Assembly (NCBI GenBank): GCA_024692605.1
Contig: JAILMQ010000133.1
Location: forward strand, 1 to 38,507
Length of the DNA: 38,507 bases
Direction: 5' to 3'
DNA from: Eubacterium sp.
Lineage (GTDB): Bacteria > Bacillota > Clostridia > Lachnospirales > Lachnospiraceae
Shown in pieces: positions 16,681 to 38,507 of the stretch. Made by a program: the position numbers and the translations under genes. The notes below the pieces were generated by a model. That model made no database searches. It saw only the letters and a list, made by a program, of their open reading frames with translations, and was not told the origin of the DNA. Each line of letters opens with the position of its first letter. Within the stretch, counting starts at the first letter, position 1.

Positions 16681-16708
16681 AAAATATGTTTTTTTTGTGA
16701 ATGAGTTT

Positions 16709-16717
16709 TGTTACAAT
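16709..16717 (+). promoter_or_regulatory. Extended -10 promoter for yitT-like gene
   Basis: TGTTACAAT is an extended -10 (TGN plus TACAAT) about 43 bases before the likely start codon. The -35 region is only a T-run. Confidence 0.45.
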
Positions 16718-16759
16718 GAACTATGAGACTATTTGAATAGATCATATGCATGGTTTGAT

Positions 16760-17668
16760 ATGGATAAAAGCAAAAAAGAAAAGAATAATAACAGAATAAA
16801 GGAAATGATATTATCCTGGGGAATGATAGTTGTGGGGGCTGTTATTGCGGCTTTTGCGCTGGAGGAATTCTTAGCTCCTAATCATATATTTGATGGTGGA
16901 GTAACAGGTGTGAGTATGATCCTCACACATTTTCTTCATGTTCCTCTTGGAGTGGTTGTGGTCATTCTGAATATTCCTTTTATCATAGTTGGAATTCGGA
17001 AGATGGGAAAGGGTTTCATTGTGAAGGTTATTGTGGCCATTGGAATATTTGCCCTTATGGCATCGATCTTTGAACGGATGGAGAATGCTACAAGAGATAT
17101 AATTCTGGCAACGGTATTCGGAGGTGTTCTTCTGGGAGTTGGTGTTGGTCTTGTGCTTCGGGGCGGTTCCTGTCTGGATGGCACTGAGATTGTGGCGATT
17201 CTTCTCAGTAAAAAACTATCCATATCTACGGGAAAGATTATTCTTTCCTTTAATGTTTTGATATATATTGTAGCCGGAATTGTCTTTGGACATGACCGGG
17301 GAATGTATTCCCTGCTTATGTATTTCATAACCTCAAAGGTTATAGATATAGTAGAAATAGGATGGGATAATACAAAGTCAGTTATGGTTATCACTGACAG
17401 AGGTAAAGAGCTTGCTCAGGCTATCTATGTAGGACTTGGACGTACAGTTACATTTATGAAGGGTGAAGGACTTGTCAGCAGTGAGCAGAAGGATATTCTT
17501 TATTGTGTTGTTACAAGAGCAGAGATGTTTGAGCTTAAACGTATAATCAATTCTGTGGAAGGTAGTACATTTACTACCATATCAGATGTTTCGGAAATAG
17601 TAGGAAACCATGTTAAGTCTGATCAGAAGAAGCAGCAGGTTATAAAAAATACGGAGGGCACTGAATAG
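16760..17668 (+). CDS. YitT family membrane protein (DUF161-DUF2179)
   Basis: A 302-residue membrane protein of the YitT family, whose transport role is not settled. The first in-frame ATG (16760) is used; a TTG at 16733 would add nine residues, and neither has a good ribosome site. Five or six hydrophobic spans cover residues about 15-195. Typical family marks are LAPNHIFDGGVTGVS near the start and RGGSCLDGTEIVA in the second half of the membrane part. The C-terminal soluble DUF2179 domain runs from about residue 205 (VMVITDRGKELAQAI) to 285 and has a PII-like fold in known relatives. The stop is one base before the next start, so the gene is translationally coupled to a diguanylate cyclase. 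Confidence 0.9.
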   Translation: MDKSKKEKNNNRIKEMILSWGMIVVGAVIAAFALEEFLAPNHIFDGGVTGVSMILTHFLHVPLGVVVVILNIPFIIVGIRKMGKGFIVKVIVAIGIFALMASIFERMENATRDIILATVFGGVLLGVGVGLVLRGGSCLDGTEIVAILLSKKLSISTGKIILSFNVLIYIVAGIVFGHDRGMYSLLMYFITSKVIDIVEIGWDNTKSVMVITDRGKELAQAIYVGLGRTVTFMKGEGLVSSEQKDILYCVVTRAEMFELKRIINSVEGSTFTTISDVSEIVGNHVKSDQKKQQVIKNTEGTE

Positions 17669-21602: not shown

Positions 21603-24479
21603 ATGAAAAAATTAACATATGTTTTAGGTTTTATTTCTTCTTTTATTTGTTTTTTAGTTTTATCATCTGGTTTTGTGGTTAATGCAGCCGACGATGTTGA
21701 AGATGTTTCGACGGTTGCCAATCCCAGAGTTTCCTATATGACCAGAGATAGTTTTTATTTTGGAAGCTACTGGCAGGAGGACACCAACGGAGACGGCGTT
21801 GCCGATAAGAATGATGAGAAAACGCCTATCAGATGGCAGATTCTGGAAAAAACCGATTATGATGCATTTATCATTTCAGACAGGGTAATTGATTCCATGC
21901 CCTACAATTCTGCCACAGAGGATGATGGTGCCTGTACCTGGGAAACTTCTTCCATCAGAGCATGGCTTAATGATGAGTTTTTAGAAGATGCATTTACCGC
22001 TGAAGAGCAGGCAATTATAAAAAATACTACTGTCAAGGATAATGGAAATATTAATTTTAGTGCAAATGGCGGAAATGATACACGTGACAAGATATACCTG
22101 ATTTCTCACAAGGAAATACTTGATACTAAATACGGATTTGATAAGCGTTTCAATTTTAGGGATAAGGTTAAGGTTGCCAAGGCAACTGATTATGCTCTTA
22201 ATAAAGAAGGGCTTGTTTATGATCTTAATACGTATACACTTGAACCTGGAAAAATGAATACTTATAGTGATGGAGCTTGTTACTGGTGGGGCAGAACAAT
22301 TGGATTTTATCAATGTAATGCTCTGACCATTAATCCTGAAGGTTCAGAGTGGGATACAGGTAACCTGATGGGAGTATATCAGGGAGTTCGCCCTGTTATG
22401 CATATTAAGATTAACGAGCTACCGGAATCCCAGCTGACTGATCCGGTAAAAGTGAAGATTGACGGAGTAAAATGGGACAGAATCAGTTTCGGAACATATA
22501 ATGACAAACCTCTCATCTGGCGTGTTCTTAAGGTGGATGGAAATGAAGCCATGCTCCTTTCGGAAGATGCTGTGAAGAATGATCGTTTTGATTTGAATCT
22601 TGATAAATATAGAGAGTATTATGACACTGCAAAATGGGACACATGTACCTTAAGACAGTGGCTGAATGAGGATTTTTATAATGAGGCATTTTCGAATGCG
22701 GAAAAGGATGCTATCCTGCTGACGGAACTGGAGAATAAGGGTAATTCTAATACAGGCGAGGCAGGGTGCGATAATACATTTGATCATGTCTATCTTCTTT
22801 CTTCTGATGATGTGACAAATGAAAGCTATGGTTTCCCAAAGGAAACATATGTTGAAAATAATTACAGAAAACTCCTCAGACCTGAAGGAGAAGACTATCA
22901 TGACTGGAAATGGTGGCTCAGAAGCCCGGGAGAAAAATATAATACTGCATTTGTACAGTCAAGTGACAGGCTGGATTGTTTTAATGGTGTTTTAGACTTT
23001 TCGGGTACAAACAATATGAATACTGCATATGTGAGACCTGTAATAAATGTGAATCTGACCAAATTATCGTCAGAAGCATATGAGGAAGAGTATTTTGAGC
23101 ATGAGCATACATTTGTATTAAATAAGTATGCTGCACCAACCTGCACCCAGCCCGGAAGGAAAGGATACTACGAATGCAGCTTGTGCCATTATGCTTACAC
23201 AACTGATGGTGAGGGCAACAAGTACGAAGTAAATCCGAATAATGTGGAGATTCCTGCAACCGGTCATACCGGCGGAACAGCAACCTGCTGCAAGAGAGCG
23301 GTCTGCACGAAATGTCGTCAGGAATACGGTGAATTCGATACTACAAAGCACGGTAAAACTGAAGTGCGTAATGTAAAGGAAGTAACCTGCACGGAAGATG
23401 GATACACAGGAGATACATACTGCAAGGATTGTAATACTAAGATAGAAGAGGGAAATGTAATTTCTGCTGAAGGTCACACAGGAGGAATTGCAAGTTGCTG
23501 TAAAAAGGCAGTCTGCGAAAGATGCCATCAGGAATATGGAGAAGTAGATCCGACGAATCATGGAGAAACAGAAGTAAGAGATGCAGTAGAAGTAACCTGT
23601 ACGGAAGATGGATATTCAGGAAATACATACTGCAAGGATTGTAATACAAAGATAGAAGAGGGAAATGTAATTCCCGCTGAAGGACATACAGGAGGAACTG
23701 CAAGTTGCTGCAAGAAGGCAATCTGTGAAAGGTGTCATCAGGAATATGGTGATGTTAACCCTGCAAAACATGGGGCTACAGAAGTAAGAGATGCAGTAGA
23801 AGCGACTTGTACAGAAGATGGATATTCGGGAGATACCTACTGCAAGGAATGTAATGAAAAGATAAATGAAGGAGAGATAGTACCGGCAACCGGTCATACC
23901 GGTGGTGAAGCAACTTGCTGCAAGAAGGCGGTCTGCACAAAATGCCACCAGGAATATGGAGAACTGAATCCTGATAATCACTCAAAATATACAGAAACCA
24001 TAAATAAGAAACCAGCGACAGAAACAGCAGAGGGATACTCCGGAGATATCTGCTGTAAGGATTGTGGAGTGGTATTAAAGAAGGGCGAGGTAATTCCAAA
24101 GTTAAAATCTTCAAAAGAAGAATCGACCACAAAAGCTGACAGCAAAGCAAAGGATGATTCCGGCAAGACAGATAAGCAGACGGTAACAGCGCCTGATAAG
24201 GCGAAGATAACAAAGCTGTCCAATATCAAGAAAAATAAATTCCTGCTGAAGTTCAAAGCAAAATCAGGTGCAAGCGGATACGAAATCCAGTATGCACAGA
24301 ATAAGAAATTTACAAAAGCTCTTAAGACTGTAAATACAAAGAAAACAAAATACACTGCCAAAAAGCTTAAAAAGAAAAAGACTTATTACGTAAGAGTAAG
24401 AGCTTATAATCTGGATGCTGACGGCAACAAAATCTACAGCAACTGGAGCACTGTTAAAAAAGTTAAAATCAAGAAGTAA
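21603..24479 (+). CDS. Secreted DUF6273 protein with Cys-rich repeats and a C-terminal fibronectin III-like domain
   Basis: A 958-residue secreted protein of unknown function. The signal peptide (KK, hydrophobic stretch, cleavage near VNA-AD at residue 28) is clear. Two DUF6273-like modules follow (about 38-275 and 285-485). Each begins with a FGSY or FGTY strand and I(R/W)WQ/RVL, contains S-x-I/L-R-x-WLN-x-x-F and ends in RPV(M/I). A Cys-rich array follows: four repeats whose HTGG motifs are at residues 555, 625, 695 and 765, exactly 70 apart. Each holds CC-x5-C-x2-C and a C...C-x2-C unit, seven cysteines in all. A Lys-rich linker (about 835-865) leads to a fibronectin III-like C-terminus (SGASGYEIQYA, YYVRVRAYN). 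No sortase motif is visible. Cell-surface binding is a guess from the architecture. Confidence 0.85.
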   Translation: MKKLTYVLGFISSFICFLVLSSGFVVNAADDVEDVSTVANPRVSYMTRDSFYFGSYWQEDTNGDGVADKNDEKTPIRWQILEKTDYDAFIISDRVIDSMPYNSATEDDGACTWETSSIRAWLNDEFLEDAFTAEEQAIIKNTTVKDNGNINFSANGGNDTRDKIYLISHKEILDTKYGFDKRFNFRDKVKVAKATDYALNKEGLVYDLNTYTLEPGKMNTYSDGACYWWGRTIGFYQCNALTINPEGSEWDTGNLMGVYQGVRPVMHIKINELPESQLTDPVKVKIDGVKWDRISFGTYNDKPLIWRVLKVDGNEAMLLSEDAVKNDRFDLNLDKYREYYDTAKWDTCTLRQWLNEDFYNEAFSNAEKDAILLTELENKGNSNTGEAGCDNTFDHVYLLSSDDVTNESYGFPKETYVENNYRKLLRPEGEDYHDWKWWLRSPGEKYNTAFVQSSDRLDCFNGVLDFSGTNNMNTAYVRPVINVNLTKLSSEAYEEEYFEHEHTFVLNKYAAPTCTQPGRKGYYECSLCHYAYTTDGEGNKYEVNPNNVEIPATGHTGGTATCCKRAVCTKCRQEYGEFDTTKHGKTEVRNVKEVTCTEDGYTGDTYCKDCNTKIEEGNVISAEGHTGGIASCCKKAVCERCHQEYGEVDPTNHGETEVRDAVEVTCTEDGYSGNTYCKDCNTKIEEGNVIPAEGHTGGTASCCKKAICERCHQEYGDVNPAKHGATEVRDAVEATCTEDGYSGDTYCKECNEKINEGEIVPATGHTGGEATCCKKAVCTKCHQEYGELNPDNHSKYTETINKKPATETAEGYSGDICCKDCGVVLKKGEVIPKLKSSKEESTTKADSKAKDDSGKTDKQTVTAPDKAKITKLSNIKKNKFLLKFKAKSGASGYEIQYAQNKKFTKALKTVNTKKTKYTAKKLKKKKTYYVRVRAYNLDADGNKIYSNWSTVKKVKIKK
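23265..24104 (+). repeat. Four tandem 210-bp coding repeats
   Basis: The HTGG codons begin at 23265, 23475, 23685 and 23895, an exact 210-base period. The middle two units are the most alike and the fourth is diverged in its second half. The exact period argues for recent duplication or unequal crossing-over. Confidence 0.9.
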
Positions 24480-25715: not shown

Positions 25716-27137
25716 ATGAGGAAGAGATTTTTAGCAGTTACAATGGCAACGTTAATTGCATGCTCTATGATGGCATGTGGAAAGAAAGAAACACCTGCAA
25801 CTACTGAAGAAGTTACAACAGCTACAGCGACTGAAGCTGAGGAAACAACTGAAGAAGAGAAATACGAATCTTCCGAAAAGTATGAGAGCAAGGACGGATG
25901 GTCAGTAAGATATATGCCATCATCTATTCAGGTAAATGAAGGTGATGACTTTACATCTTTCGTGTACACCGGAGAGTGCTCAGGAACTGATATGGTAAGT
26001 ATCTCTTATATAAAGAATAAGAACTCAAAGAGCTATCTCTATGAAAAGCTGGGAAATGATGAAGAAGCAAAGAAAAATGTTACAGAGGGCTCTTTCATCG
26101 GATATGAGGACAGATGGTGCTATGTATCTGTTATGGAGTCTGACGGAGCTGATTCCGGACTCTCAACAACTTATTTTTCATCAGAGTATAATGATGGAAC
26201 AATCTTTATTGAGGTTATAAATCATGCTGAAACTGATGAAGAAATCGGAATGGCAGTTTCTGACAGCCTTTCAATGATTGTTGATTCAATCTCACTTAAG
26301 GATCCACAGCCACAGAAGGAGCTTGCTTATATCCCCGGTGTATATAAGGAAACTGTAGAGACAGAGGTTAATGGAGAAAAGGTTAAGAAAGAGTACAAGA
26401 TCACACTTAACAAAGACCACACAGGAACCATGGAGATTCAGGAAAAATCAGATGTTACATGGTCAAGTGAGAAGATTACTCAGACAGGTACCGGAAATAC
26501 ATATGCATACTCAGTAAGCGGCACAGAACTCAAGATTAATCTGGGTGGTGCATGGTTTACATTTGACAAGTCTGACAAAGCAACAACAGAGGCGACAACA
26601 GAGGCAACTACAGAAAAGAAGGATGACAAGAAGGACAGCAAGGATAAGAAAGAATCTAAGAAGGAAAAGAAGAAAAAGGATAAAAAGAGTAACGGTGATA
26701 AGACGGACGAAAAGCAGGAAGAGACAACAACAGAGGCTACAAAGGAAGATACAACAGAAACAACAGAGCAGTCGGATGACGGACAGAATCCTGTAATGAA
26801 TTATGTAGGCAAATACGGTTCAGGCAGAGCAACTATTGAAGTTTCAGCAAAGGAAGGCTCAAAGGACGAAGCTGAGATTAAAATATCCTGGGCAAACACA
26901 GCTGCTGAAGTATTTGAATGGACAATGAGTGGTAAATTCGATCCGGATACACTCACTATTGAATATAAAGACTGTGTAAAGAAATCCATCACATATGATG
27001 AGAATGGACTGGTAGATAAAGAAACTGAGATTTACAAGAATGGCTCCGGCAAATTCACCTTCAGTGATAAGGACGGCTCCCTTACCTGGGATGATGACAA
27101 AGAAGATGCCGGAAAAGATATGACATTTACAATGTAA
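25716..27137 (+). CDS. Secreted lipoprotein with Lys/Glu/Thr-rich linker
   Basis: A 473-residue probable lipoprotein. The ATG follows AAGGAG by nine bases. A lipoprotein signal peptide ends at MMAC-GKK with the lipidated Cys at residue 21. A Thr/Glu-rich stretch (about 27-50) acts as a spacer. An N-terminal domain (about 58-200) and a second domain (about 205-288, with IPGVYKE, ITLNKDHTGTM and YSVSGTELKI) follow. The second has the look of small lipocalin-like calycin domains, but the match is weak. A highly charged low-complexity linker (about 288-350, TTEATTE then Lys/Asp/Glu runs) leads to a C-terminal domain with similar strand patterns (YVGKYGSGRATIEV). Ligand and role are unknown. Confidence 0.8.
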   Translation: MRKRFLAVTMATLIACSMMACGKKETPATTEEVTTATATEAEETTEEEKYESSEKYESKDGWSVRYMPSSIQVNEGDDFTSFVYTGECSGTDMVSISYIKNKNSKSYLYEKLGNDEEAKKNVTEGSFIGYEDRWCYVSVMESDGADSGLSTTYFSSEYNDGTIFIEVINHAETDEEIGMAVSDSLSMIVDSISLKDPQPQKELAYIPGVYKETVETEVNGEKVKKEYKITLNKDHTGTMEIQEKSDVTWSSEKITQTGTGNTYAYSVSGTELKINLGGAWFTFDKSDKATTEATTEATTEKKDDKKDSKDKKESKKEKKKKDKKSNGDKTDEKQEETTTEATKEDTTETTEQSDDGQNPVMNYVGKYGSGRATIEVSAKEGSKDEAEIKISWANTAAEVFEWTMSGKFDPDTLTIEYKDCVKKSITYDENGLVDKETEIYKNGSGKFTFSDKDGSLTWDDDKEDAGKDMTFTM

Positions 27138-27340: not shown

Positions 27341-28468
27341 GTGAAAATCAAGAGTTTAAAGTTATATATAATTTCATTATTATGCATTCTGGTCTCTTCG
27401 TTTTTTGTGGGCGATATGATTGCTCGTGGGTTAGAATACTCTGCCGGAAGGGGAGAGGTTTTTAAAGATGCATTGCCTATACTTATTGTATTTGGAATTA
27501 GATATGCATTAGATAGAAAACTAATCAATAATAAGTTGAAGTTTAATATGTCCATGTTTATTTTTGACATGTTTATATCCATAGCTGTAGCTATACTATC
27601 TGTTGTGACGCTGGAAATGTATGCGTTATCTAAGCTGTCGATTAGATTAACAATAACTATATTAAGTCTGTTTATAACCTGCTATTTTGAACGACATATC
27701 TACCTTGAATTCAGTACGGCAGAATCAGATGAGTTTGAAGAAGATATGGAAAATGAGTCGGATGATAGTGAATCGGAATATGATGAATCGGAATATGATG
27801 AATCAGAATATGATGAATCAGAATATGATGAATCAGAAAATGAATATTCAGAATATGATAGCAATATAAGTACTAAAATGGTGAATAATATCATGAAAAA
27901 AAGATTGCTGCTTACTACAGGTGGAGCAATTCTTAAAATGGTTCCGTTTGTTGCGGCGATTCTCGTATTGGGAGATATAGCTGCGAGACGGTTTGGTGGA
28001 TTATATTATCTGCTGATTATTATCATGTTTATCTTTGCAGCGGGTGTAAAATCTGTAGTTCTATCTTTGAGTGATATTATAGGTATCGAAAAAAAATACG
28101 ATATTATTGGCTACATTATCCTTACAGCCATATTGGTAGTGTTTATATGCTTCAGATCTGTGCTCACCGGAATGATATTCTTGCTGGGTTCGGCACTTGT
28201 ACTGCTTGGAATTCCACTTTTGCTTGATAATATTGCTACCGGTGGAACAAACGTTGTTAGACAAAAGAAAGAACTTCTATCAAGACTTATGTTCAGGATT
28301 TTTAGTCTCATAATGCTTTCCGTAGCAGTTTGGCTGCTCAGCTACGGTGCTATATGGAGAGTAGATATATTGATAATATTGGTAATTGGGATTGGAAGTG
28401 TAGATATGTCACTGATTCATTCACGTTCAAGCTTGATGCAGGTTTCAGATACCATTAATAGTGATTAA
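27341..28468 (+). CDS. Polytopic membrane protein with acidic tandem-repeat loop
   Basis: A 375-residue membrane protein with no recognised family. The start is a GTG five bases after AGGAGA. About four hydrophobic spans lie before residue 125 and about six after residue 185. Between them is a very acidic soluble loop (about 127-180) containing repeated DESEY units encoded by a 15-base tandem repeat. The two membrane halves share a similar opening (VGDMIARGLE near residue 23 and LGDIAARRFG near 210), suggesting an ancient internal duplication. Only a weak promoter-like sequence (TTGGTA, 16 bases, GATAAT, 27252-27279) precedes it. The function is unknown. Confidence 0.72.
   Translation: MKIKSLKLYIISLLCILVSSFFVGDMIARGLEYSAGRGEVFKDALPILIVFGIRYALDRKLINNKLKFNMSMFIFDMFISIAVAILSVVTLEMYALSKLSIRLTITILSLFITCYFERHIYLEFSTAESDEFEEDMENESDDSESEYDESEYDESEYDESEYDESENEYSEYDSNISTKMVNNIMKKRLLLTTGGAILKMVPFVAAILVLGDIAARRFGGLYYLLIIIMFIFAAGVKSVVLSLSDIIGIEKKYDIIGYIILTAILVVFICFRSVLTGMIFLLGSALVLLGIPLLLDNIATGGTNVVRQKKELLSRLMFRIFSLIMLSVAVWLLSYGAIWRVDILIILVIGIGSVDMSLIHSRSSLMQVSDTINSD
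27770..27859 (+). repeat. 15-bp tandem repeat, six units
   Basis: The unit GAATCRGAATATGAT occurs four times in a row (27770-27829) with only an A/G change, then twice in degenerate form (to 27859). Each unit encodes Glu-Ser-Glu-Tyr-Asp, and changes in copy number would keep the frame. Confidence 0.93.
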
Positions 28469-28587
28469 TTATGAACAAAGTATGACAATAGCGTCTGTCA
28501 AGTTGCCATAATAACTATTATATGGTAAACTAAATTCAAATAGTTATGCCTAAAATGTATATAAAATCACTGTTTAATAAGAAAAGG

Positions 28588-28614
28588 TAACCCACAGTTT
28601 CCGGGGTCTGACAG
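28588..28614. repeat. Degenerate copy of the GGGGTCAGACCCC element in the pseudopilin leader
   Basis: AACCCACAG, a five-base interruption, then GGGGTCTGACAG. Read on the other strand it matches the right half of the terminator repeats at 21.5 and 24.5 kb, but it lacks the outer arms and T-run. Confidence 0.5.
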
Positions 28615-28652
28615 AGAAAGGACTGGCAGATTCAATCATAGGAGGTAGGCTT

Positions 28653-31600
28653 ATGGTTAATAAAGAAACTAAAAGGGTGGTTGGTAAGGTATTGTATAAG
28701 GAATCCGGATCTAAGATGGCAGAAGGTATGGGCGTGCAGCATATGAGAAAAATATCCGGTAACAGAATATCAAAGAGTATTAGCTCCCAGAAGAATTCTA
28801 AAAAAGGATTCACACTCGTGGAGCTTATTGTCGTGCTTGTAATCCTTACAATTCTTACAGCAGTGGCAGTTCCTGTTATGTTAGGAGTAATCAATCACAC
28901 AAGAGAGAAGAATATAAAAGTAAATGCTGATGCTGCCTTAAAGGCTGCTCAGGCAGAGCTTACTGAATTATATAATAATTGTTCCAATACATTATATCCC
29001 AGACTTAGAACAAAAATAATGGATAATTCAGGTCATACGGCAGATGATGGAAGTGCCTTTTGGATTTGGACCGGAAAGGATTTGAAAGACGGACAGACTA
29101 CCAGTATTCAGGAGAATATTGCTTCATATACTATAGTTGCAGCACTTTATAAAGAGAAAGGTGCTTATTATTTCTATGATGGAAATGAATGGAATAAGAT
29201 AGCAGATACCAAAACCGATGAAGCTACAGTAGTTGAAAATGCGAAAAACAAAGCAGGTGCCGCCGGCATAACCGGTTCTGCTATAGCAAGATCAACTTTA
29301 CTTATCTGGCCTGGTTTTACGGAGAAAATGACTGACGTGGCATATGGTGCTACACATGATGATGAAGGTGGTTATGGTGGAGATGATCCTGCTCAAACCA
29401 TAACTAAAACCTTGCATTTAATAGCTAATGAGCAGGATGGCGACGAAAATCTTGTTTCATTTAAAACTGACGGTAATATAGAAAGACAACAAATTGATAT
29501 TGAATTCAAGTTTGATTCAAACACTCTTCAATATAAAAGTGATACGTGGGATGGAAGCAAGTATACGGTTGAAGAAGGTGGAGAAACTAATTCATATTCC
29601 TTCAATATAAATGAAGATTATATTTTTGATGAGTGGGAACTCATAAATGGCGGGGATGAGACCTATAAAGCTACAGGCTCAGGAGTTACCTCCGCTGAAA
29701 AAGCAACTAATGCGGTAAATCAGCTGAAAACATATATATTCTCTCAAACAAATAAGAGCGAGTTTACGTTTAAGGCTAATATAACCGAAATCGAGATTGA
29801 AAAAACCGCAATTTTTAAGACTTGTAATAGTGAAGAACTGCCATTTGGTAAAAATAATTCAATCGAGGTGAAGTTTATCCAGAAGAAGCATCATCCGGAT
29901 AATATTTCAGCTGAAAATTGGGATAAAGTAACTGCTGCTCTGGATAACCTGCAACCATGGGGTCTCAGAGGCTGGTTTACGAGTGACGATTATTCGAAGG
30001 ACGAGAATGGTATAGGAGTTACAACAATAACTGCCGGAGCAGATAAAGGATATAGTGATATATGCAGTATGTTATTTGGAGATGGTTCTTCAGAAGGCAC
30101 ATTAACATTTACAACAGCTATGCAGCTCCAAAAAACTGCAAATCTTAATATTGATACCAGAATTCTTGAAAAATTGAATAAACCGGAAGTACAAAATCCT
30201 TATCCTGAATCTGTGGCAGTCAGCTATACAAGGTATCTTCCGGAAGATTTTATATCTGATAACTGGAACACACAAATCGATGCGACACTTGGAAAAGAAA
30301 TCGTAAGTGTGGTTCCTTTGGATGCATCGGAAAAACCGTTACTTAGAGAAGATGATAAGGAGCTTGAATTAAAGAAGGCTATAAGGGCAGATGTAAAAAC
30401 CATTATAAAGACACTCTTATATGAGGGGCGAATTACGCCTGTTTTACGAGTGCTTAAAGGTGGACAGGTATTAAAAAAGTATAATAATGAGAATTTGACT
30501 ATTGAAGCAGGTGCCACATCTATTGATGTTTCTGAAATAACAAGTATGTCGTTTAATGCAGTTGGCGGACTTACATATGCTATGTTCTTTGCTGATTTTG
30601 GTGATTGGGATACTTCTAACCATCTTCATCAATATGCTGATATGGTTGGATTCCAAAGATATACAGAACATATAGATGACCCGGAAAGTGCCGGCTGGAC
30701 TGATATAAGTATAGGTGGTGCTAACGATAGCTATAAAGATAAGTACGATCCATCGGTGGCTTCATATGTTCAGGAGTATAATCCCAATACGGTTTGGGGT
30801 AAATATGATACCGCAACAAAAATTTATTATTGGTATACAGAAGCTGACAAAGTATATTTGAATCCATATAGTTCGGAAATGTTTTGCGATTGTAAGAAGC
30901 TTACGAATATTGATTTCTTGGGAATGGATGCCGGTAAGGTTTGTGATATAGAGTACAGAGATGCAAAGAAGGAAGGAATTCATAATAGTGGATTTTTACA
31001 GTTTTTCTATAATACAACCAGTTTGAACAGTTTATCGAATTTCCATGATTTTATAGCCACAGCAAATTGTGGAACTTATCGGAATATGTTTAGAAATTCT
31101 GCGGTTTCCAATATAGACAATACCGGAATGGTTGATGTGGGAATTATTAATCTGGATGGAGTAACTCCTAATCTTTCAAAGATGTTTTTGGAAAAGGTTA
31201 GAACTTCTTCAACCCAAATTAAAATTTCTTTTTCCGGAACTCCAAATGTAGTTTGTGAGTTCTGGCAGGTATTAGACTCATTTAACAGTTGTACCAGTGC
31301 GACCTTTGACTTTTCTATGTTTGATGTTACAAAGGGTAATTTCGAAAAACTTTTGCGAAATAGAGGTGGTGGTGATAATGATGCTATTGATTATCTGAAG
31401 CTTGTATTTGCGGGAGATGATCAAGTGAATTTCAAGACGATTCTTCATAACAGCACTAATACTGAAATTAAAAAAGTTAAACATTTTTGTCTGGATTTAT
31501 CTAATTACAATTATTCTAATATAGATTTTTCGTATCTGTTATATGGACAGAATGTGTTAAAAACTGTTGAAATAAATGGTTTTGATAACAAGGTAAAAAA

Positions 31601-32243
31601 TACTGCGTATATGTTTTATGACGCTTATAACGTAGTAGCTTCTGATAGCTTATGGACCAGCAATATGAATCTTTGGAACACTTCCGGCGTTACCAATATG
31701 AATTATATGTTTTATCAATCTAATGGTAATTATAAAGTTGATAGAATGTCTATGATAAATCAGATAGTTAATTGGAATGTTGAAAATGTTAAAACTGCAA
31801 TTTATATGTTCTGTAATTTTAATACAACAAATAATACTAATTATGAATTTGATTTTACTGGGTGGGATTTAAAAAGCTTAGAAAAGGCATCCCATATGTT
31901 TGATGTTTGGTCATCGAAAAGCAAAATAACATTAAAAACAGGCAGTTCATTGGAAAAACTTGAGGATGCAAATCAAATGTTGAAGGCTATGAGATTATCA
32001 AAAGAGAGTTTAGATGATTTCTTTTCTAAAGTTAAAATTGGCGGATTTACCAATATGGTGACAAAGGATAATCAGGAGACAAAGGATAATCATATAATAA
32101 TAGGGCAGACGGATAACCAAAAATGGAGCAGAGAATGTACTACTTATGATAATTATAAGGTAACTATTAATATGAATTATGATAAGGGTACAATTACGTC
32201 CATAGTAGCTCCTGACGGAACAGTAGTATATTCGAGACCGTGA
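28653..32243 (+). CDS. Pseudopilin-like surface protein with C-terminal BspA/DUF285-like repeats
   Basis: A 1,196-residue protein with a type IV prepilin signal. The ATG follows AGGAGG by eight bases, so the unusually long 52-residue basic leader appears real. Prepilin peptidase should cut at KKG52/F53 in GFTLVELIVVLVILTILTAV, with the conserved Glu at +5 and a hydrophobic N-terminal helix. A pilin-like helical segment (to about 110) and several beta-rich regions follow. From about residue 640 there are repeats of the DUF285/BspA type (MFCDCKKLTNIDF, TSGVTNMNYMFYQ, NVENVKTAIYMF), a leucine-rich-like solenoid seen in surface adhesins. It is the first gene of an operon with the next giant pseudopilin (14-base gap). 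Assembly into a pilus or display on the cell surface is inferred; no pilus machinery genes are in view. Confidence 0.85.
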   Translation: MVNKETKRVVGKVLYKESGSKMAEGMGVQHMRKISGNRISKSISSQKNSKKGFTLVELIVVLVILTILTAVAVPVMLGVINHTREKNIKVNADAALKAAQAELTELYNNCSNTLYPRLRTKIMDNSGHTADDGSAFWIWTGKDLKDGQTTSIQENIASYTIVAALYKEKGAYYFYDGNEWNKIADTKTDEATVVENAKNKAGAAGITGSAIARSTLLIWPGFTEKMTDVAYGATHDDEGGYGGDDPAQTITKTLHLIANEQDGDENLVSFKTDGNIERQQIDIEFKFDSNTLQYKSDTWDGSKYTVEEGGETNSYSFNINEDYIFDEWELINGGDETYKATGSGVTSAEKATNAVNQLKTYIFSQTNKSEFTFKANITEIEIEKTAIFKTCNSEELPFGKNNSIEVKFIQKKHHPDNISAENWDKVTAALDNLQPWGLRGWFTSDDYSKDENGIGVTTITAGADKGYSDICSMLFGDGSSEGTLTFTTAMQLQKTANLNIDTRILEKLNKPEVQNPYPESVAVSYTRYLPEDFISDNWNTQIDATLGKEIVSVVPLDASEKPLLREDDKELELKKAIRADVKTIIKTLLYEGRITPVLRVLKGGQVLKKYNNENLTIEAGATSIDVSEITSMSFNAVGGLTYAMFFADFGDWDTSNHLHQYADMVGFQRYTEHIDDPESAGWTDISIGGANDSYKDKYDPSVASYVQEYNPNTVWGKYDTATKIYYWYTEADKVYLNPYSSEMFCDCKKLTNIDFLGMDAGKVCDIEYRDAKKEGIHNSGFLQFFYNTTSLNSLSNFHDFIATANCGTYRNMFRNSAVSNIDNTGMVDVGIINLDGVTPNLSKMFLEKVRTSSTQIKISFSGTPNVVCEFWQVLDSFNSCTSATFDFSMFDVTKGNFEKLLRNRGGGDNDAIDYLKLVFAGDDQVNFKTILHNSTNTEIKKVKHFCLDLSNYNYSNIDFSYLLYGQNVLKTVEINGFDNKVKNTAYMFYDAYNVVASDSLWTSNMNLWNTSGVTNMNYMFYQSNGNYKVDRMSMINQIVNWNVENVKTAIYMFCNFNTTNNTNYEFDFTGWDLKSLEKASHMFDVWSSKSKITLKTGSSLEKLEDANQMLKAMRLSKESLDDFFSKVKIGGFTNMVTKDNQETKDNHIIIGQTDNQKWSRECTTYDNYKVTINMNYDKGTITSIVAPDGTVVYSRP

Positions 32244-32257
32244 TGAGGTAAAATAAT

Positions 32258-35200
32258 ATGAGATTCTTTTCAACATTAAAATTAAATAAAGAAACTCATA
32301 AGAGTGATAATAAAGGCTTTACCTTGGTAGAGCTTATCGTAGTTCTGGTTATTATAGTCATAATGGCTGCGGTAGGTACTTTTGGTGTTCTTGGTTGGCA
32401 GGACTGGTCACGTTTTCAGCATGAAAATGCTGTTGCTGAGGAAATCTTTTTTGCTGCTCAGATTCAGCTGACCGAGCTTGACAGTAGTGGTGCATTTGAA
32501 AACAGGATTACAGAACCGCTTAAGAGAGCAAGCGATAAGGATACAGATAAGTATCTGGATACAGGGTATGCTTCTAAATATATTCTAAGTAAGGAACTGT
32601 TAGGAGCTATATCCTATGAAGGCGAAGGGGACAATAGTGTCTATTATAATTGGAATACTATATGGAAACTTAGTACGAATAAAGATAAACAGAATGATTC
32701 TATAGTTCGTATCAGAGCAAACAAAGGAGACTATAAAAAGTATATTGAGGGAAAACTATTAGATGGAATCAACTATGATTCGGCCTTATCTAAGGAGCAG
32801 CTTCAAAAGGTTGGAGCAAAACTGCTTTTCGATTTAGTGGCAAGTTATGTATCTGACACATCTGTTCTAAACGGTGCTATAGTTCTTGAATTTTCGCCGG
32901 ACTCCTGTCAGGTCTTTTCGGTATGCTTTACAGATATGGCAGATGGATTTATCTATGATGGAGATATAGGTAAAGAAACCGGAGATTCTGACAAATATTT
33001 AATAAGTGCTATAGATAGAACTTTGCATACACGTAGCGGACTTATGTTTGGCTACTATAGTGTAGATCAACTTACTGATAAAATCAGGGGCAGAGGTAAT
33101 AGAAGCACAGATATAATCCTTGAACTGAAGAACTCTGATGTTTTGGATCTTATAGTACATGATAATGCTGCAAATGAGGATAAGAAACTTTCTGCTGAGA
33201 CTTCTGATACTTTGGATTTTTCAATCTTTAATGGTGTTACAGATACAAAGGTTATGACGTTCACTGTTAAAATCAGCGACTTTAAGGATACTGTAAATAC
33301 AATCGAAAAAGCTGCTGCTAAGCCTGTGGATGTTAAGATTAGTTTTGAAGACGGTACTCCTGATACCACTTACAGACTCCCTATGTACAAGGAGGGGGAT
33401 GATTATCATATTATTCTGGATGCTGCTGATGTTCAGGCACAGACTTTGTCCTTACAGGAAAGCTTAAAAATACTTGGAGACAGCGACACTGATAATGATG
33501 ATGAAGCAACATTTCTTAATACCTACAGCTTCCACAGATTTAGAATTAATGCAGAGAAGATATATGCATCTGTAGATATATATAAAGACGGGATGAGTGC
33601 TGGAACAACAACCAGTACAAGAGAGTTTGGAGATAATTATATATATGAGGATTCAGCCGGAAACCAGATTACGGAATCTACATGCTTTGCTTCAGATCCT
33701 ATCGCAGGTGATGCTATACCTGAAAATACCTACAGAATAGAAAATGGAAGACATTTATATAATGTCAGATATAAGACCGAATATAAATCAACGACTGATG
33801 CAGGGTATACATTTGAACTTGTAAAGGATATTGACTGGAATGATTTCATAGGGAAAACTGAAGATAATACAACAAATTATTTTCTTAATTCTTACGATAC
33901 TACCAAAGGAGCAGCTCATATAGCATCAGGAATAGATTATGATGGGCTGAGTGTTGCAACCGGAGTATGTAATGAAGTACCTGCAAGTGGAAATTTAGAG
34001 AAAACGGTTTATTACTCTCTTAGAACAGAAGATGTATATAACACTGCAAATTATCCTTTCCCCGGCTTCAGGTGTTTAGGAAAAGATGACAAATTCTGCT
34101 CTAAAGAGAGTGCGGATAAGAAAATTTATACAATAAGTAATCTTCATATAACCATAACCGGTAATATTCTGTATGGAGTATATGATACAGACACCAGGCA
34201 AATTAAAGACGCTTGCGTAAAAACCTCAGGTGAAGGCGATAACAAGGTGGTATATGATGATTATACTGCTGTTCTTGGACTTAAAGATGCGGATGCTGTT
34301 AATGGTTCAGGATCCAAATATGCAAGAGCGGGTCTTACGCCACTTGGACTTTTTGCAGAGAACCTCGGTACGATAGAAGATGTAGCCTTGAATAAACATA
34401 TAGTTGAAGGTATGCAGAGGGTATATTCAAATAATAAATATACTGTTGTGTATAGTTGTATGGTTGGAGGATTTGCCGGAAATAATATAGGTACTGTATC
34501 AGGTCTGACTCTTTATGATAATGAGAAGAATAATGCTACGTCTGCTCAGGCAAAGATAACACATATAAATGGACGAACAGATGTAGGTGGAATTATAGGA
34601 AGAGAATCATTTGCTCTTAATGAAAATGCAGATGTAACTCTTGAAAAACTTAATAATTACGGAAATGTCAGCGGAATGGAAAATGTCGGTGGCATAGTTG
34701 GTCGTGCCTATGTTCATTATGTAGGGGACGATAGTGAATATAATACTTCGGAGTATACAGGTGTTGGATATGGTACCAATAATACAATTACTGATGAAGA
34801 AGGTAGATGCAGATATGAGTTTTATCATGATGGATATGATATAACTGACTCGTTCAAATCTATGACAGGAACTTCTGTCCATAGGGCTAAGACGGTAAAA
34901 ATCAAAGATTGTTTAAATAGAGGAGTAGTTGAAGGAGACAGTATCGTACATAACAGTTCGGTGAACTCTACTTATGCTGTAGATACAGATTTACATCATT
35001 ATTATGAAAGTAAAACGGATTATACCAGATATTATACTCAGACAAATTATAGTCTTAAAGAAGATAATAAAAAGGTTTACAGGTTAACTACGCCATATTT
35101 AGGAAAATGCGCATTTATAGGTGGCATTGCAGGTATAATTCAGGACGGGTTCATAATAGATGACTCGTTACATACTTATAAAAGGAATAACAATTCAAAT

Positions 35201-38200
35201 AGTTATGAGTATGATGTTTACTATGACCGTGGATATTTTGATGGAACATTTCAAACTGCATCTATAGAGGATTGCGATAGTGTCATGTTATATGATGATT
35301 CGTCAGCGAATGCAATTATTAATTCAATAAATAATACAAACGAAAATAAAAAATTCTTTAATGATATGTTTGTCGGTGGAACAGTTGGTTATGCAAGACT
35401 ATGTGCAGTAAAGAATTGCAAGTTTGATGAATCAAAAGATAATACTTTTGGTGGAAAATGTGAACCTCATGTATTTGGATACAGGTATGTAGGTGGTTTT
35501 GCAGGATGCTCAGACTTTGCCAGATATGACGAGAGTGAAAATAGTAACGATTATATAGTTGAAAACAACAGTACTGTTCTTGGAAGATATAATGTCGGAG
35601 GAATAGCAGGCGCTTTCGGTATAGGTGACTCTATGCAGGAAGGTTTATCGTTTAGAGAACCAAGCAGAAATGAAGCTGGACGTTCTTCTCAAAATCGTAG
35701 AAATGGCAGTACTCCTGCAAATATAATTGTAAAAAAACTTCTTAATTCAGGAGTTGTTCTTGGAATTGATAAGAATAAAACTGCTTTTCAAAACGGAGTT
35801 CTTGAAAATGGTAATGAATTAAAAGACATTAATTATTATTATAGTGCATGCATAGGCGGAATAGCTGGAGAAACAAAGGTCGCTCTTGTTGATTGTGATA
35901 ACATACAATCTGAAGAAACAAAAAATAAAGCTATCAAGCTGATATTTGGTAACAATTACGATATTGATGCTTTAAATAATCTAAGCACTGCACAGATTGT
36001 TGCTATGTCGGTAAATTCTAGGTTTGGAGGATCCTGTGTTGGTGGTATAGTTGGAAAAACTCGTACATATAATAATAATAATCCATCTGAAAACTTAGCT
36101 GGTATAAATGGGCTTGATTATCAAAATAATTCCGGCTCAGAAAAGTATCATTCTAATGTTGATGCTATAGTATTTGGCGGTGATTATGTTGGTGGTGCGA
36201 TAGGTTTTAATAGCAGCCATAGTAATAATCTGTATCCTTATAAAGCAGATGCTTCTTCAACAGGTCTCATGGTAATAGGTAGAGATGCTATAGGCGGAAT
36301 AGTGGGATTAAATGCTCAGGAAAATAATAATAGAACTTGCTCGCTTAATAATATTGAAAGAGGCTACTATGATAGTGAAAGAACGATTGATACTCCATAT
36401 AGGGTATATGGAAGATATGGAGTAGGTGGAGTAGTCGGAAAATATGATGAGCAGGAATGTAGGATTAGTACAGCTTTAGAAGATAGTGATAGGATTAGCG
36501 TAAATGGACTTGCTTATGTTGGGGCATTTGCCGGAGTTGCTAAAAACTCAGAAATGAAGCTTTTTGGAAATCTATCTAATGTTGATGTAAATTCTGAATA
36601 TTTTGCAGGCGGATATACAGGAGCTGTTACTTCAAATGAAAGTATATCCAAAATATTTAATGATTATATAACTAATGATGGATCTAAAAAACTCAATACT
36701 TCGAATATAGTTATTAATAGTAATGCTTTTTCTGGTGGATTTTCCGGACTTGTTACAGTACGTGATTTGAATAATAATGACAGCCAGCTGCATAAAGTTG
36801 CTAAAAAACTTATAACTGAAACAGGTTCTTATCAAAATAAAGATATAAGTTATGATGTTCAATCCGACTTAAAGACAGCATATGATTCAATAGTTGCAGC
36901 TGACATAGATAATATGACAAGTGTATTTAATACAAATAATACTATCGAAAATGTATTTACTGGTACCAGCAAAGATTCTACGAAGGAAGATCGAAATTAT
37001 GTAATAGAAGGAATTGAAGTCAATGCAGGAATCTTTGCAGGAGGTATGTTTGGTTATGTGCCTAATGGTATGAAGCTGGAAGTAAGGGACTTTACAAATA
37101 ACTGTTCTGTCAAGGCGACTTCCTCTGTGAACGGAGTATCTGAAAGCTATGATTCAAACGTGAATTATGCTTATCTGGGTGGTATTGTAGGACGTGTTCC
37201 TATGAATACCAAGCTTTATAATTGTAAAAATCTGGCATATGGAGAAGATGACGGACAAGATGGAGCATACTATGTAGCTGACGCAGCTGATTATATAGGC
37301 GGGCTTACAGAGGTAAATGCAGGTTATATAGGCGGAACTGTTAATAACAGTGGGGATGTTACATATCTGGAAAATGATACACCATATGAATATCCGGGTA
37401 AAAAGGTGGGAGCTTTTGCCGGAGTAAATGGTACAGTAAATACTAAAGGAAACTCTACAGAGGAAAAGACCACTGCTACCCAGGGCTCTGATGGAACCAC
37501 TACAACGAATGTTGAGACTATATATCATTTTTCTGGAGTTATAGAACATTGTATTAATAATGTTGCCATATCAGGTGATGATGCGGCAGGCGTTTCGGCA
37601 GGTATTGGTGGTAAATCTGACATTAATGATTGCATAAATAAAGGAAATATAAATGGAACTTCATTATCCGCCGGTATAGTTGGTGACTGTATATCAAGCT
37701 CCATGTCGGAGAATGTGGCGATGGATGATAATAATGAATATGGCATTAATATAAATAATTGTATAAACCTTGGTGGAATTGCAGAGGATGCTGAGTCAAG
37801 CTCCGGTATCGCAGGCAATACATATGGTTGTGGAAATATTCAGCTTTGCAGAAATTATGGCACTGGAGCTGAGTATGGTATAACTTCAGGCGAAGCGTCA
37901 ACCGTCACGAAAAACCTTGAAGCAAGTGGACTTAACGAAGAAAATGATGCCAATCCTATAGGCCCGGGAGTAACTACTGCATTGAACTTTTATATTTATG
38001 ATGATACAAGTGTTACTCCTGAATATAACACCGGTGGCGGCGAAGGAGGAGAACAAGGAGGAGAAGAACAAGAAGAGCAGGTTGAGAAGATCTATACTAA
38101 CATTGACTTCTCTAAATATTTAGGCAAACATAATGATTGGTCAAAGAATTATGAAGATAGATATAATGATGGTTCATCAAATCCAATTAGTAGGCAGTAT

Positions 38201-38507
38201 TTGATAGATAAAATAAATTCTTATAAGAATAATTATGAAGATGGTTTGTATACTTCTGCTGATGATTGGTTTATAGACGGCATATACAAGAAATTTGGTG
38301 AGAATGTTGAAACGACTATAAAGTATTGTTCTTTTGTATATGCAGCATTTGTTGTTACTGAGCGAGCTAATGGTACATATCAGGATACCAATGAATCATT
38401 CTACAAATATATAAAAGATATAGTCGAGTCCCACAAGCTTCCAGGTGTTTCTGATGATAATATGAAATATAGATCTGATGGATCTCTTAACAGTGCTCCT
38501 ATAGTAG
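32258..38507 (+). CDS. Giant pseudopilin-like protein with GLUG-type glycine repeats (3' end outside window)
   Basis: The frame is open from the ATG at 32258 to the end of the window, over 2,083 residues with no stop. GATGAGGT precedes the ATG by eight bases. The N-terminus is a 20-residue leader and prepilin cleavage site NKG20/F21 in GFTLVELIVVLVIIVIMAAV, with Glu at +5. A mixed region to about residue 700 has no named domain. From about 736 to 1720 there are roughly 20 motifs of the form (V/I)GG(I/F)(A/V)G, about every 30-80 residues. These are typical of GLUG-motif beta-helix adhesins and peptidase-associated surface proteins. A Gly/Glu-rich hinge (about base 38030-38080) precedes a further C-terminal domain that is cut off. 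Composition is AT-rich, unlike the ribosomal genes. A surface filament or adhesin is the likely role. Confidence 0.88.
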   Translation, partial: MRFFSTLKLNKETHKSDNKGFTLVELIVVLVIIVIMAAVGTFGVLGWQDWSRFQHENAVAEEIFFAAQIQLTELDSSGAFENRITEPLKRASDKDTDKYLDTGYASKYILSKELLGAISYEGEGDNSVYYNWNTIWKLSTNKDKQNDSIVRIRANKGDYKKYIEGKLLDGINYDSALSKEQLQKVGAKLLFDLVASYVSDTSVLNGAIVLEFSPDSCQVFSVCFTDMADGFIYDGDIGKETGDSDKYLISAIDRTLHTRSGLMFGYYSVDQLTDKIRGRGNRSTDIILELKNSDVLDLIVHDNAANEDKKLSAETSDTLDFSIFNGVTDTKVMTFTVKISDFKDTVNTIEKAAAKPVDVKISFEDGTPDTTYRLPMYKEGDDYHIILDAADVQAQTLSLQESLKILGDSDTDNDDEATFLNTYSFHRFRINAEKIYASVDIYKDGMSAGTTTSTREFGDNYIYEDSAGNQITESTCFASDPIAGDAIPENTYRIENGRHLYNVRYKTEYKSTTDAGYTFELVKDIDWNDFIGKTEDNTTNYFLNSYDTTKGAAHIASGIDYDGLSVATGVCNEVPASGNLEKTVYYSLRTEDVYNTANYPFPGFRCLGKDDKFCSKESADKKIYTISNLHITITGNILYGVYDTDTRQIKDACVKTSGEGDNKVVYDDYTAVLGLKDADAVNGSGSKYARAGLTPLGLFAENLGTIEDVALNKHIVEGMQRVYSNNKYTVVYSCMVGGFAGNNIGTVSGLTLYDNEKNNATSAQAKITHINGRTDVGGIIGRESFALNENADVTLEKLNNYGNVSGMENVGGIVGRAYVHYVGDDSEYNTSEYTGVGYGTNNTITDEEGRCRYEFYHDGYDITDSFKSMTGTSVHRAKTVKIKDCLNRGVVEGDSIVHNSSVNSTYAVDTDLHHYYESKTDYTRYYTQTNYSLKEDNKKVYRLTTPYLGKCAFIGGIAGIIQDGFIIDDSLHTYKRNNNSNSYEYDVYYDRGYFDGTFQTASIEDCDSVMLYDDSSANAIINSINNTNENKKFFNDMFVGGTVGYARLCAVKNCKFDESKDNTFGGKCEPHVFGYRYVGGFAGCSDFARYDESENSNDYIVENNSTVLGRYNVGGIAGAFGIGDSMQEGLSFREPSRNEAGRSSQNRRNGSTPANIIVKKLLNSGVVLGIDKNKTAFQNGVLENGNELKDINYYYSACIGGIAGETKVALVDCDNIQSEETKNKAIKLIFGNNYDIDALNNLSTAQIVAMSVNSRFGGSCVGGIVGKTRTYNNNNPSENLAGINGLDYQNNSGSEKYHSNVDAIVFGGDYVGGAIGFNSSHSNNLYPYKADASSTGLMVIGRDAIGGIVGLNAQENNNRTCSLNNIERGYYDSERTIDTPYRVYGRYGVGGVVGKYDEQECRISTALEDSDRISVNGLAYVGAFAGVAKNSEMKLFGNLSNVDVNSEYFAGGYTGAVTSNESISKIFNDYITNDGSKKLNTSNIVINSNAFSGGFSGLVTVRDLNNNDSQLHKVAKKLITETGSYQNKDISYDVQSDLKTAYDSIVAADIDNMTSVFNTNNTIENVFTGTSKDSTKEDRNYVIEGIEVNAGIFAGGMFGYVPNGMKLEVRDFTNNCSVKATSSVNGVSESYDSNVNYAYLGGIVGRVPMNTKLYNCKNLAYGEDDGQDGAYYVADAADYIGGLTEVNAGYIGGTVNNSGDVTYLENDTPYEYPGKKVGAFAGVNGTVNTKGNSTEEKTTATQGSDGTTTTNVETIYHFSGVIEHCINNVAISGDDAAGVSAGIGGKSDINDCINKGNINGTSLSAGIVGDCISSSMSENVAMDDNNEYGININNCINLGGIAEDAESSSGIAGNTYGCGNIQLCRNYGTGAEYGITSGEASTVTKNLEASGLNEENDANPIGPGVTTALNFYIYDDTSVTPEYNTGGGEGGEQGGEEQEEQVEKIYTNIDFSKYLGKHNDWSKNYEDRYNDGSSNPISRQYLIDKINSYKNNYEDGLYTSADDWFIDGIYKKFGENVETTIKYCSFVYAAFVVTERANGTYQDTNESFYKYIKDIVESHKLPGVSDDNMKYRSDGSLNSAPIV

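Follow-up and report, generated by a model that had tools for sequence, protein, structure and literature searches.

Two Giant Modular Prepilins and the Predicted Type IV Pilus Operon Headed by Their Homologues in Lachnospiraceae

The stretch of DNA considered here (the window; 38,507 nucleotides of Eubacterium sp., Lachnospiraceae, contig JAILMQ010000133.1 of assembly GCA_024692605.1) ends with two very large adjacent genes, named giant 1 and giant 2 throughout this paper, whose products combine a prepilin signal and a pilin-like module with long repeat-bearing regions, and whose homologues in related genomes head a predicted type IV pilus operon. The complete contig C6 of a 2.7 Mb genome bin (271 contigs, 89% complete, 5% contamination) makes up the window, so this genome offers no sequence beyond position 38507. 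The features of the window and the prepilin peptidase loci discussed below are collected in Table 1.

The Giant Gene Pair and Its Prepilin Signals

The two open reading frames (ORFs) lie in the same direction with 14 bases between them, as had been predicted from the sequence alone, and each is preceded by a ribosome-binding sequence (AGGAGGT 6 bases before the ATG of giant 1, GAGGT 8 bases before that of giant 2). The genuine prepilin signals claimed in the same prediction were recovered by two models: PF07963 was matched at 32.7 bits in giant 1 and 28.9 bits in giant 2 (Pfam cut-off 21.2), and TIGR02532 at 27.4 and 25.6 bits, respectively (cut-off 16.3). Cleavage is predicted after G52 in giant 1 and after G20 in giant 2, in both cases directly before FTLVE, which would place glutamate at position +5 (Glu5) of both mature proteins. 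The leader of giant 1 aligns from residue 1 with giant 1 of genomes G012 and G005 (blastp), and the leaders of nine giant-1 orthologues range from 16 to 57 residues. The frame of giant 2 (32258-38506) contains no stop before the contig end; its orthologues in relatives comprise 2,063 to 2,495 amino acids (aa), and a further one, also cut by its contig, reaches 1,621 aa. No LPxTG-type wall anchor was found in the two giants of the window, giant 2 being incomplete at the contig end.

Table 1. Coordinates of the giant genes, their modules and related features. Positions are those of the window unless a locus is named.
Feature	Position	Strand	Basis
Giant 1, modular prepilin of 1,196 aa; mature mass about 128.6 kDa, pI 4.8	28653..32243	+	ORF, PF07963, PF03382
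Giant 1 leader, 52 residues, KKG end before FTLVE	28653..28808	+	Sequence
Giant 1 predicted pilin module, about residues 53-226 (about 175 residues), boundary approximate	28809..29330	+	blastp to pilins
Giant 1, best DUF285 (BspA-like) stretch, residues 1003-1113	31659..31991	+	PF03382
Giant 2, modular prepilin of 2,083 aa or more; mature mass 225 kDa or more, contig ends within gene	32258..38507	+	ORF, PF07963
Giant 2 leader, 20 residues, NKG end before FTLVE	32258..32317	+	Sequence; PF07963 at residues 16-39
Giant 2 predicted pilin module, residues 21-268 (248 residues)	32318..33061	+	Short orthologues, alignment A4
Giant 2 added module: conserved region, then GG-repeat region	33062..38506	+	Motif count, alignment A1
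Conserved membrane protein, acidic tract DESEYDESEY	27341..28468	+	Upstream of giant 1; no Pfam family over cut-off
Split-peptidase locus (own contig C73)	L030:9072-9926		
Split-peptidase locus	L115:22646-23071		
Split-peptidase locus	L194:9929-10330 and 16507-17361		
Split-peptidase locus	L193:11044-11919		

Modular Architecture of the Giants

As judged by sequence comparison, a pilin-sized module precedes the added module in both giants. Residues 47-107 of giant 1 share 60.7% identity over 61 aa with the major pilin of its own genome, residues 50-194 align with a 170-aa pilin of locus L124 at 28% identity, and a short pilin of locus L120 likewise matches this module (all by blastp); a Gly/Asp-rich linker comes after it. 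Short giant-2 orthologues of only 210-237 aa were found in three loci (L125, L126, and L144), directly before a gene for a K-like minor pilin, and they align with giant 2 up to approximately residue 268 (alignment A4). Based on these short orthologues and on the pilin alignments of giant 1, each giant is composed of a pilin and an added module, and not of a signal joined directly to repeats. The original prediction, in which repeats stood in place of a pilin, was thus right about the large repeat modules but not about the replacement. Relatives of solved structure were pilins for the N-termini of both giants and leucine-rich-repeat (LRR) proteins for giant 1.

The DUF285/BspA-like label given earlier to giant 1 is borne out by PF03382, which was matched at 33 bits (cut-off 25) in two stretches, the better of which spans residues 1003-1113 only. 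In the alignment of giant-1 sequences (A3), PF03382 matches all ten members (one of them a fragment; best E 1.5e-125) and LRR_5 four of the ten. The LRRs of the BspA type are presumably those covered by the entry IPR026906.

The repeats of giant 2 are real: beyond residue 270 there are 19 xGGxxG motifs, located from residue 736 onward, whereas 2,000 shuffled versions of the protein contain 2.0 on average and never more than 7. Their assignment to the GLUG family did not stand, since PF07581 gave no match to giant 2 of the window at E ≤ 1 and matched just one of the 11 members of the giant-2 alignment (A1), weakly (E 0.039); the GLUG identity is therefore rejected as unproved for this protein. 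Among three more distant giants scanned, one, from Cuneatibacter (locus L127), passes PF07581 at 30.4 bits (cut-off 20.5). No Pfam domain was found in the added module of the window's giant 2. In both families the pilin helix is the most conserved part, with a mean pairwise identity of 62% in A3 and 61% in A1; the corresponding values are 21-30% in the added module of giant 1 and 32-44% in giant 2 on to residue 1950.

The Type IV Pilus Operon in Relatives

The operon regions of 12 relatives were fetched and their frames listed with a greedy longest-frame caller, by which genes under overlapping frames can be hidden; in the G002 listing, for example, the A24_N protein (the methylase domain of prepilin peptidase, PF06750) and an approximately 150-aa protein are hidden by overlap, A24_N being seen there, as also in G020, by the PF06750 search. 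The giant pair is adjacent and co-directional in 11 of the 12 relatives, with gaps of 3-81 bp, and the twelfth (G035) is represented by a 5.5 kb contig with giant 2 only. It had been proposed to look for pil genes past position 38507, where the contig of the window ends; in relatives, pil genes do follow the homologous pair. The order of the operon is giant 1, giant 2, K-, I-, and J-like minor pilins, a small membrane protein, the prepilin peptidase slot, PilC, a PilM-like protein, a PilO-like protein, PilB, and the major pilin. Among the 11 relatives with the pair, the contig continues past giant 2 in ten, and in all ten the K-like gene is directly next. Eight of these regions reach the major pilin (143-178 aa), with the J-like gene followed by the approximately 150-aa membrane protein, A24_N, PilC, the PilM-like protein of about 490 aa, the PilO-like protein, PilB, and the pilin. 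Among the matches listed in a wider scan of named genomes, which partly overlap the 12 relatives, the K-like gene is next to giant 2 in 17 of 23 loci with a giant-2-type frame of more than 1,500 aa.

Glu5 is present in every giant 1 (9/9), giant 2 (10/10), I-like (10/10), J-like (10/10), and major pilin (8/8) checked, and is missing from all ten K-like pilins. PilB, PilC, a small major pilin, and minor pilins share one operon, as established with Pfam on G005 and by similarity elsewhere; A24_N, T2SSF, T2SSE with MshEN, and N_methyl were confirmed in the G005 operon, in which the K-like, PilM-like, and approximately 150-aa proteins have no Pfam family over cut-off. When a profile of eight PilM-like proteins was compared with solved structures, the one match was PilM of 3jc8, and it was weak (E 0.0018); Pfam matches were similarly weak, namely PilM_2 in two of the eight (best E 0.0011) and PilN in one (E 0.037). 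A hydrophobic stretch at approximately residues 324-342 of about 490 recurs in all nine PilM-like proteins examined, and this stretch, together with the length, would fit a PilM-PilN fusion. The small membrane protein (L115:22188-22628 and homologues of 141-168 aa) is present in many copies of the operon and has a conserved AKNVRMALRSADIEMYGKGKTIYN-like stretch and no family over cut-off.

A membrane protein of 1,495-1,720 aa, which we take to resemble YfhO, is encoded beside the major pilin gene at L096:10929-15554 and at the same place in G002 (where it is cut), G007 (on the opposite strand), and G017. Pilin glycosylation by this YfhO-like protein is conceivable.

Pilus Genes in the Genome of the Window

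In the genome from which the window derives, the genes from PilC through the pilin are located on contig C171 and a PilW-like fragment on contig C69. Its PilB contains the MshE-type cyclic di-GMP (c-di-GMP) motif (NF053729, 42 bits with a cut-off of 38), and MshEN is also present in the PilB of a relative. The absence of any prepilin peptidase from the genome had been named as an observation that would refute the earlier proposal; an enzyme matched by PF01478, with both catalytic motifs kept, was found on contig C73. Two PilT proteins (TIGR01420, 481.3 bits on C84 and 477.1 bits on C224; cut-off 319.1) belong to a different operon from the giants. In genomes G416 and G419, a PilT/PilU-family ATPase (431.3 and 438.4 bits with the same cut-off) lies between PilB and giant 2, directly before the latter, which favors retractable pili in those organisms.

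Further pilus-like loci were noticed in the same genome. Contigs C224 and C84 carry PilB-PilT-PilC. A second pilin family, with GFSLVEL mostly followed by a APALIRYIDKSR-like stretch, comprises seven genes at L027, L028, L029, L032, and L033 (contigs C224, C139, C42, C195, and C240), some of them paired beside unrelated genes. Another locus (L031, contig C138), cut at both contig ends, encodes, besides a PilM-like protein and a protein that looks PilO-like, a pseudopilin of 588 aa (GFSLVEIIIAIA) and at least 447 aa of a PilX-like protein.

Distribution and Co-occurrence

With a threshold of E ≤ 1e-10, 18 of 36 congeners have giant-1 homologues, several of the matches spanning the pilin module only, and at least 16 of the 36 have giant-2 homologues, a lower bound because the divergent giant 2 of G031 (2,114 aa) was missed by that search; neither was found in 24 genomes of other families. 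A PilB of the operon type (75-91% identity, full length or cut by the contig) occurs in 17 of the 36, and giant 2 in 13 of these 17 vs. three of the 19 without it. When only the 19 congeners that are at least 90% complete are counted, giant 2 is present in 11 of 12 with this PilB and in one of seven without it (Fisher p 0.0017); this test and the one given below treat congeners as independent and ignore relatedness. The exceptions with PilB are G031 with its divergent giant 2, G026 with a giant-2 tail, and G004 and G033, whose contigs break off. Giant 2 occurs in the absence of operon-type PilB in G021 and G035, and in G025 a single contig carries A24_N and giant 2 without PilB.

When named genomes were scanned with the giant-2 alignment (best 80 of 100 relatives), at least 78 loci were returned. 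Among the matches listed, most are from metagenome-assembled genomes (MAGs) and isolates of Lachnospiraceae, including AC2029 and NE2001, and Cuneatibacter caecimuris, Eubacterium sp. MSJ-21, and an Anaerostipes MAG are also represented, while loci named Oscillospiraceae, Ruminococcus, and Saccharofermentans match the N-terminal part only. Of 393 genomes sampled from the order (all but the window's own at least 90% complete), 21 match the giant-2 profile at E ≤ 1e-20; the matches fall in 13 of 174 genera, and four of the 21 are from another family. The largest homologue fetched has 3,910 aa (L203:4184-15916) and a prepilin signal of 28.7 bits. In a quick tree of 43 PilC sequences, giant-bearing operons are placed on several branches, and L125, L128, and L144, which have a short or no protein in the giant-2 slot, group together in a single clade; the outgroup has a long branch, and the root is left open.

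Possible Function and Alternative Explanations

It was reported that in known systems the H-I-J-K minor pilins start the filament and that K, which is devoid of Glu5, caps its tip, and that in Streptococcus sanguinis two modular adhesive pilins and the Glu5-lacking PilA were modelled as one tip complex, with the adhesive modules as open wings (PMC9934059). Based on the architecture and gene neighborhood described above, we propose, with a probability of roughly 0.75, that the two giants belong to a type IV pilus as modular minor pilins and present two giant adhesive modules at its tip. The K/I/J-like genes stand directly after two giants that bear Glu5, from which we infer a place for the giants just under the K-like pilin; both this tip location and the adhesive role are modelled on PilB and PilC of S. 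sanguinis. The giants would be inserted through their pilin helix with the added module outside, the stand-alone peptidase would remove their leaders, and the processed proteins would enter the K/I/J-like complex, by which the pilus is primed, and end up at the pilus tip. The two long arms, formed by the LRR region of giant 1 and the GG-repeat region of giant 2, are plausible candidate binding surfaces and might attach the cell to plant fibre, host mucus, or another microbe. Extension of the pilus is probably tuned by c-di-GMP, as suggested by the MshE-type motif of PilB.

Several observations weigh against this proposal. The case is built on sequence, with the tip location drawn by analogy, and the solenoid fold of giant 2 is suggested by the spacing of its motifs. 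The K-, I-, and J-like names are based on order, size, and Glu5, and just some of these proteins pass N_methyl; the PilO-like protein of G005 scores below cut-off (16.5 of 22 bits), and neither Pfam nor NCBIfam gives a family over cut-off for the PilM-like protein. The arrangement is also not uniform: the giant is located elsewhere in the operon in five of the 23 named loci listed (L131, L132, L133, L147, and L168), a 159-aa frame separates the giant from the K-like gene in L175, and foreign genes are found in the operon after the J-like gene in G017 and G020 and before the pilin in G023. In the genome of the window, parts of the operon lie on different contigs, unrelated genes follow the PilW-like fragment of C69, and A24_N was not found (no PF06750 match in the assembly), no search having been made there for K- or I-like genes.

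The strongest alternative, which we regard as unlikely, is that the pilin helix serves as a membrane anchor only and that the giants are surface adhesins outside any filament. Added modules of approximately 1,000 to 3,600 residues would be a heavy load for a filament subunit, and proteins in which an LPxTG-type wall anchor is lacking, as in the window, need another anchor. Glu5, however, is important for filament packing, and it is kept in all 19 giants checked; in addition, the two giant genes are kept next to those for the K/I/J-like pilins and for assembly.

It is considerably less probable still that the machine is a type II-like secretion pseudopilus with the giants as its parts or cargo. 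The GspE and GspF models do outscore the PilB and PilC models on the PilB and PilC of the window's genome, and the PilM-like protein has the combined length of PilM and PilN, which is also that of GspL. Membership in type II secretion was nevertheless rejected, since the equivalog cut-offs were not reached (GspE 539.7 of 630.25 bits, GspF 314.2 of 424). The best-scoring solved relatives of PilB are type IV pilus ATPases, the operons of G416 and G419 include the PilT/PilU-family ATPases mentioned above, and the hosts are Lachnospiraceae, which are monoderm. The original prediction had left the assembly platform as a type IV pilus or a type II-like system, and only the first option is supported, by the type IV pilus genes that accompany the pair. 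An assembly or frame artefact in the metagenome bin, which its 271 contigs and 5% contamination might have suggested, is ruled out for practical purposes by the presence of the same gene pair in the single-contig genomes G002 and G005 and in nine further relatives.

Comparison With Known Systems

The original prediction considered proteins of this kind undescribed, but the class has been defined as modular pilins, of which more than 1,200 proteins in 264 architectures were reported (Raynaud et al. 2021, PMC8179133). IPR026906 is among the 15 commonest extra domains of the class, one modular pilin was shown to be an adhesin, and the most extreme one described there has 860 residues and 12 repeats (PMC8179133). 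Both giants have three features of the class, namely a class III signal, a pilin module (by sequence), and an extra C-terminal non-pilus domain, which is PF03382 in giant 1 and the long region in giant 2; a fourth, direct action of the module in a pilus function, would be provided by the adhesion proposed here. No account of giants of this size was found in the open-access literature searched. As far as searched, the new elements are pairs of giants of 1,100-2,500 residues fixed in a pilus operon, with single homologues of up to approximately 3,900 residues, the short orthologues by which the junction is marked, and the apparently split prepilin peptidase.

The closest parallel is provided by PilB and PilC of S. 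sanguinis, which likewise consist of an N-terminal class III signal, a pilin module, and a large C-terminal module that is not pilus-specific, and which are also accompanied by a Glu5-lacking minor pilin in one monoderm pilus operon (PMC8179133; PMC9934059). The S. sanguinis proteins have a mass of about 50 kDa and bear a vWA or a lectin module, whereas those considered here have 1,100-3,900 residues with LRR or GG repeats, the modules being likened by description; the K/I/J-like set is kept here, and S. sanguinis has PilA instead. The type IVa pilus loci of Clostridioides difficile and Clostridium perfringens contain PilB, PilC, PilM, PilN, PilO, and pilin genes in a monoderm (PMC6916266) and resemble the operon in PilB, PilC, and the pilins, with putative counterparts of PilM, PilN, and PilO, but here the giant pair heads the operon, the PilM-like protein is long enough to include PilN, the peptidase is apparently split, and PilT is outside the operon of this genus, being located elsewhere in the window's genome. 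A very large tip effector on a minor pilin complex is also known from diderms as PilC/PilY1; PilY1, however, does not belong to the pilins and does not occur in monoderms, while the giants carry the pilin helix themselves (PMC9934059). Finally, giant 1 is related through PF03382 (10/10) and LRR_5 (4/10) to the BspA-like/DUF285 surface proteins, the repeats being placed here on a pilin module.

With homologues of up to 3,910 aa, several times the size of any modular pilin named in the literature consulted, the giants would be a test of the load that a pilus tip can carry. They also bear on how rumen and gut Lachnospiraceae may attach, and the operon supplies adhesin candidates with a clear set of partners.

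An Apparently Split Prepilin Peptidase

In the genus of the window, the prepilin peptidase appears, from the distribution of its two domains, to be split into two separate genes. Among the 36 congeners, PF06750 was found in 17, in open frames of 137-167 aa and one of 302 aa, and PF01478 (peptidase) in 32, and the two were found at one place in none (E ≤ 0.001). In the 15 other-family genomes that have PF06750, PF01478 is always immediately adjacent; a single open frame holds both in 14 of these, and the remaining one (G037) looks frame-broken. The conserved residues are divided in the same way: the aligned peptidases (L030 of the window's genome, 284 aa, and those of G018 and G032) keep D..IP and GGGD and have lost all four cysteines, and four aligned A24_N proteins keep all four cysteines. 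An apparent intermediate is seen in G031, where a 291-aa protein has an intact A24_N half and a second half with neither GGGD nor a PF01478 match. Of the 36 congeners, 16 have A24_N together with operon-type PilB, 18 have neither, and each of the two is found alone in one (Fisher p 6e-8).

The peptidase slot varies in wider relatives, where the loci surveyed were those other than L117, L122, L123, and L143. A full-length enzyme occupies it in L127, L136, and L164 (both domains by Pfam), in L134 and L140 (by alignment), and in L178 (by length). In the locus of the 3,910-aa pilin it contains a 163-aa peptidase half alone (L203:18096-18587; PF01478 71.1 bits, no A24_N match), and in L116, L118, L120, L124, and L151 nothing in the slot is labelled. 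The slot thus decays in different ways, and A24_N could also be a relic.

It was reported that enzymes devoid of the methylase domain exist (TadV), that zinc is needed for methylation and dispensable for cleavage, and that the meaning of pilin methylation is a mystery after more than 40 years (PMC10191384). A methylase domain (A24_N) standing alone was not reported in the open-access literature searched. One joint reading, to which we give clearly less than even odds, is that the classical bifunctional enzyme gave rise, by complementary degeneration, to a general peptidase, with its catalytic Asp motifs intact and its four zinc cysteines gone, and to a zinc methylase standing alone. The methylase would be retained only where the giant-pilin operon is present and would methylate the giant-tipped pilus alone; combined with tip subunits of up to approximately 3,900 residues, this would constitute a distinct pilus class. 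The split is the sharper point of the system, since nature seems to have parted leader cleavage from N-methylation; the two activities may thereby be separated genetically and the old question asked by genetic means. If the joint reading is true, the role of methylation in pilins could be tested by one deletion.

Neighboring Genes and Other Features of the Window

No match at gathering score was obtained with Rfam anywhere in the window, just two chance-level matches being returned at 28400-28700 (E 2.2 and 4.4), and a promoter and terminator scan was uninformative (20 promoter-like sites vs. 25 in shuffled sequences; one terminator-like site vs. 2.2). Homologues of the membrane protein encoded upstream of giant 1 (Table 1) are found upstream of the operon in seven relatives, directly so in four. 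The product of the gene at 25716-27137 is a predicted lipoprotein that has ACGKK close to its N-terminus, low-complexity stretches rich in Lys, Glu, and Thr, and no Pfam family over cut-off. Also upstream of the giants, the gene at 21603-24479 encodes a protein with DUF6273 (162.7 bits, two stretches) and an fn3 domain.

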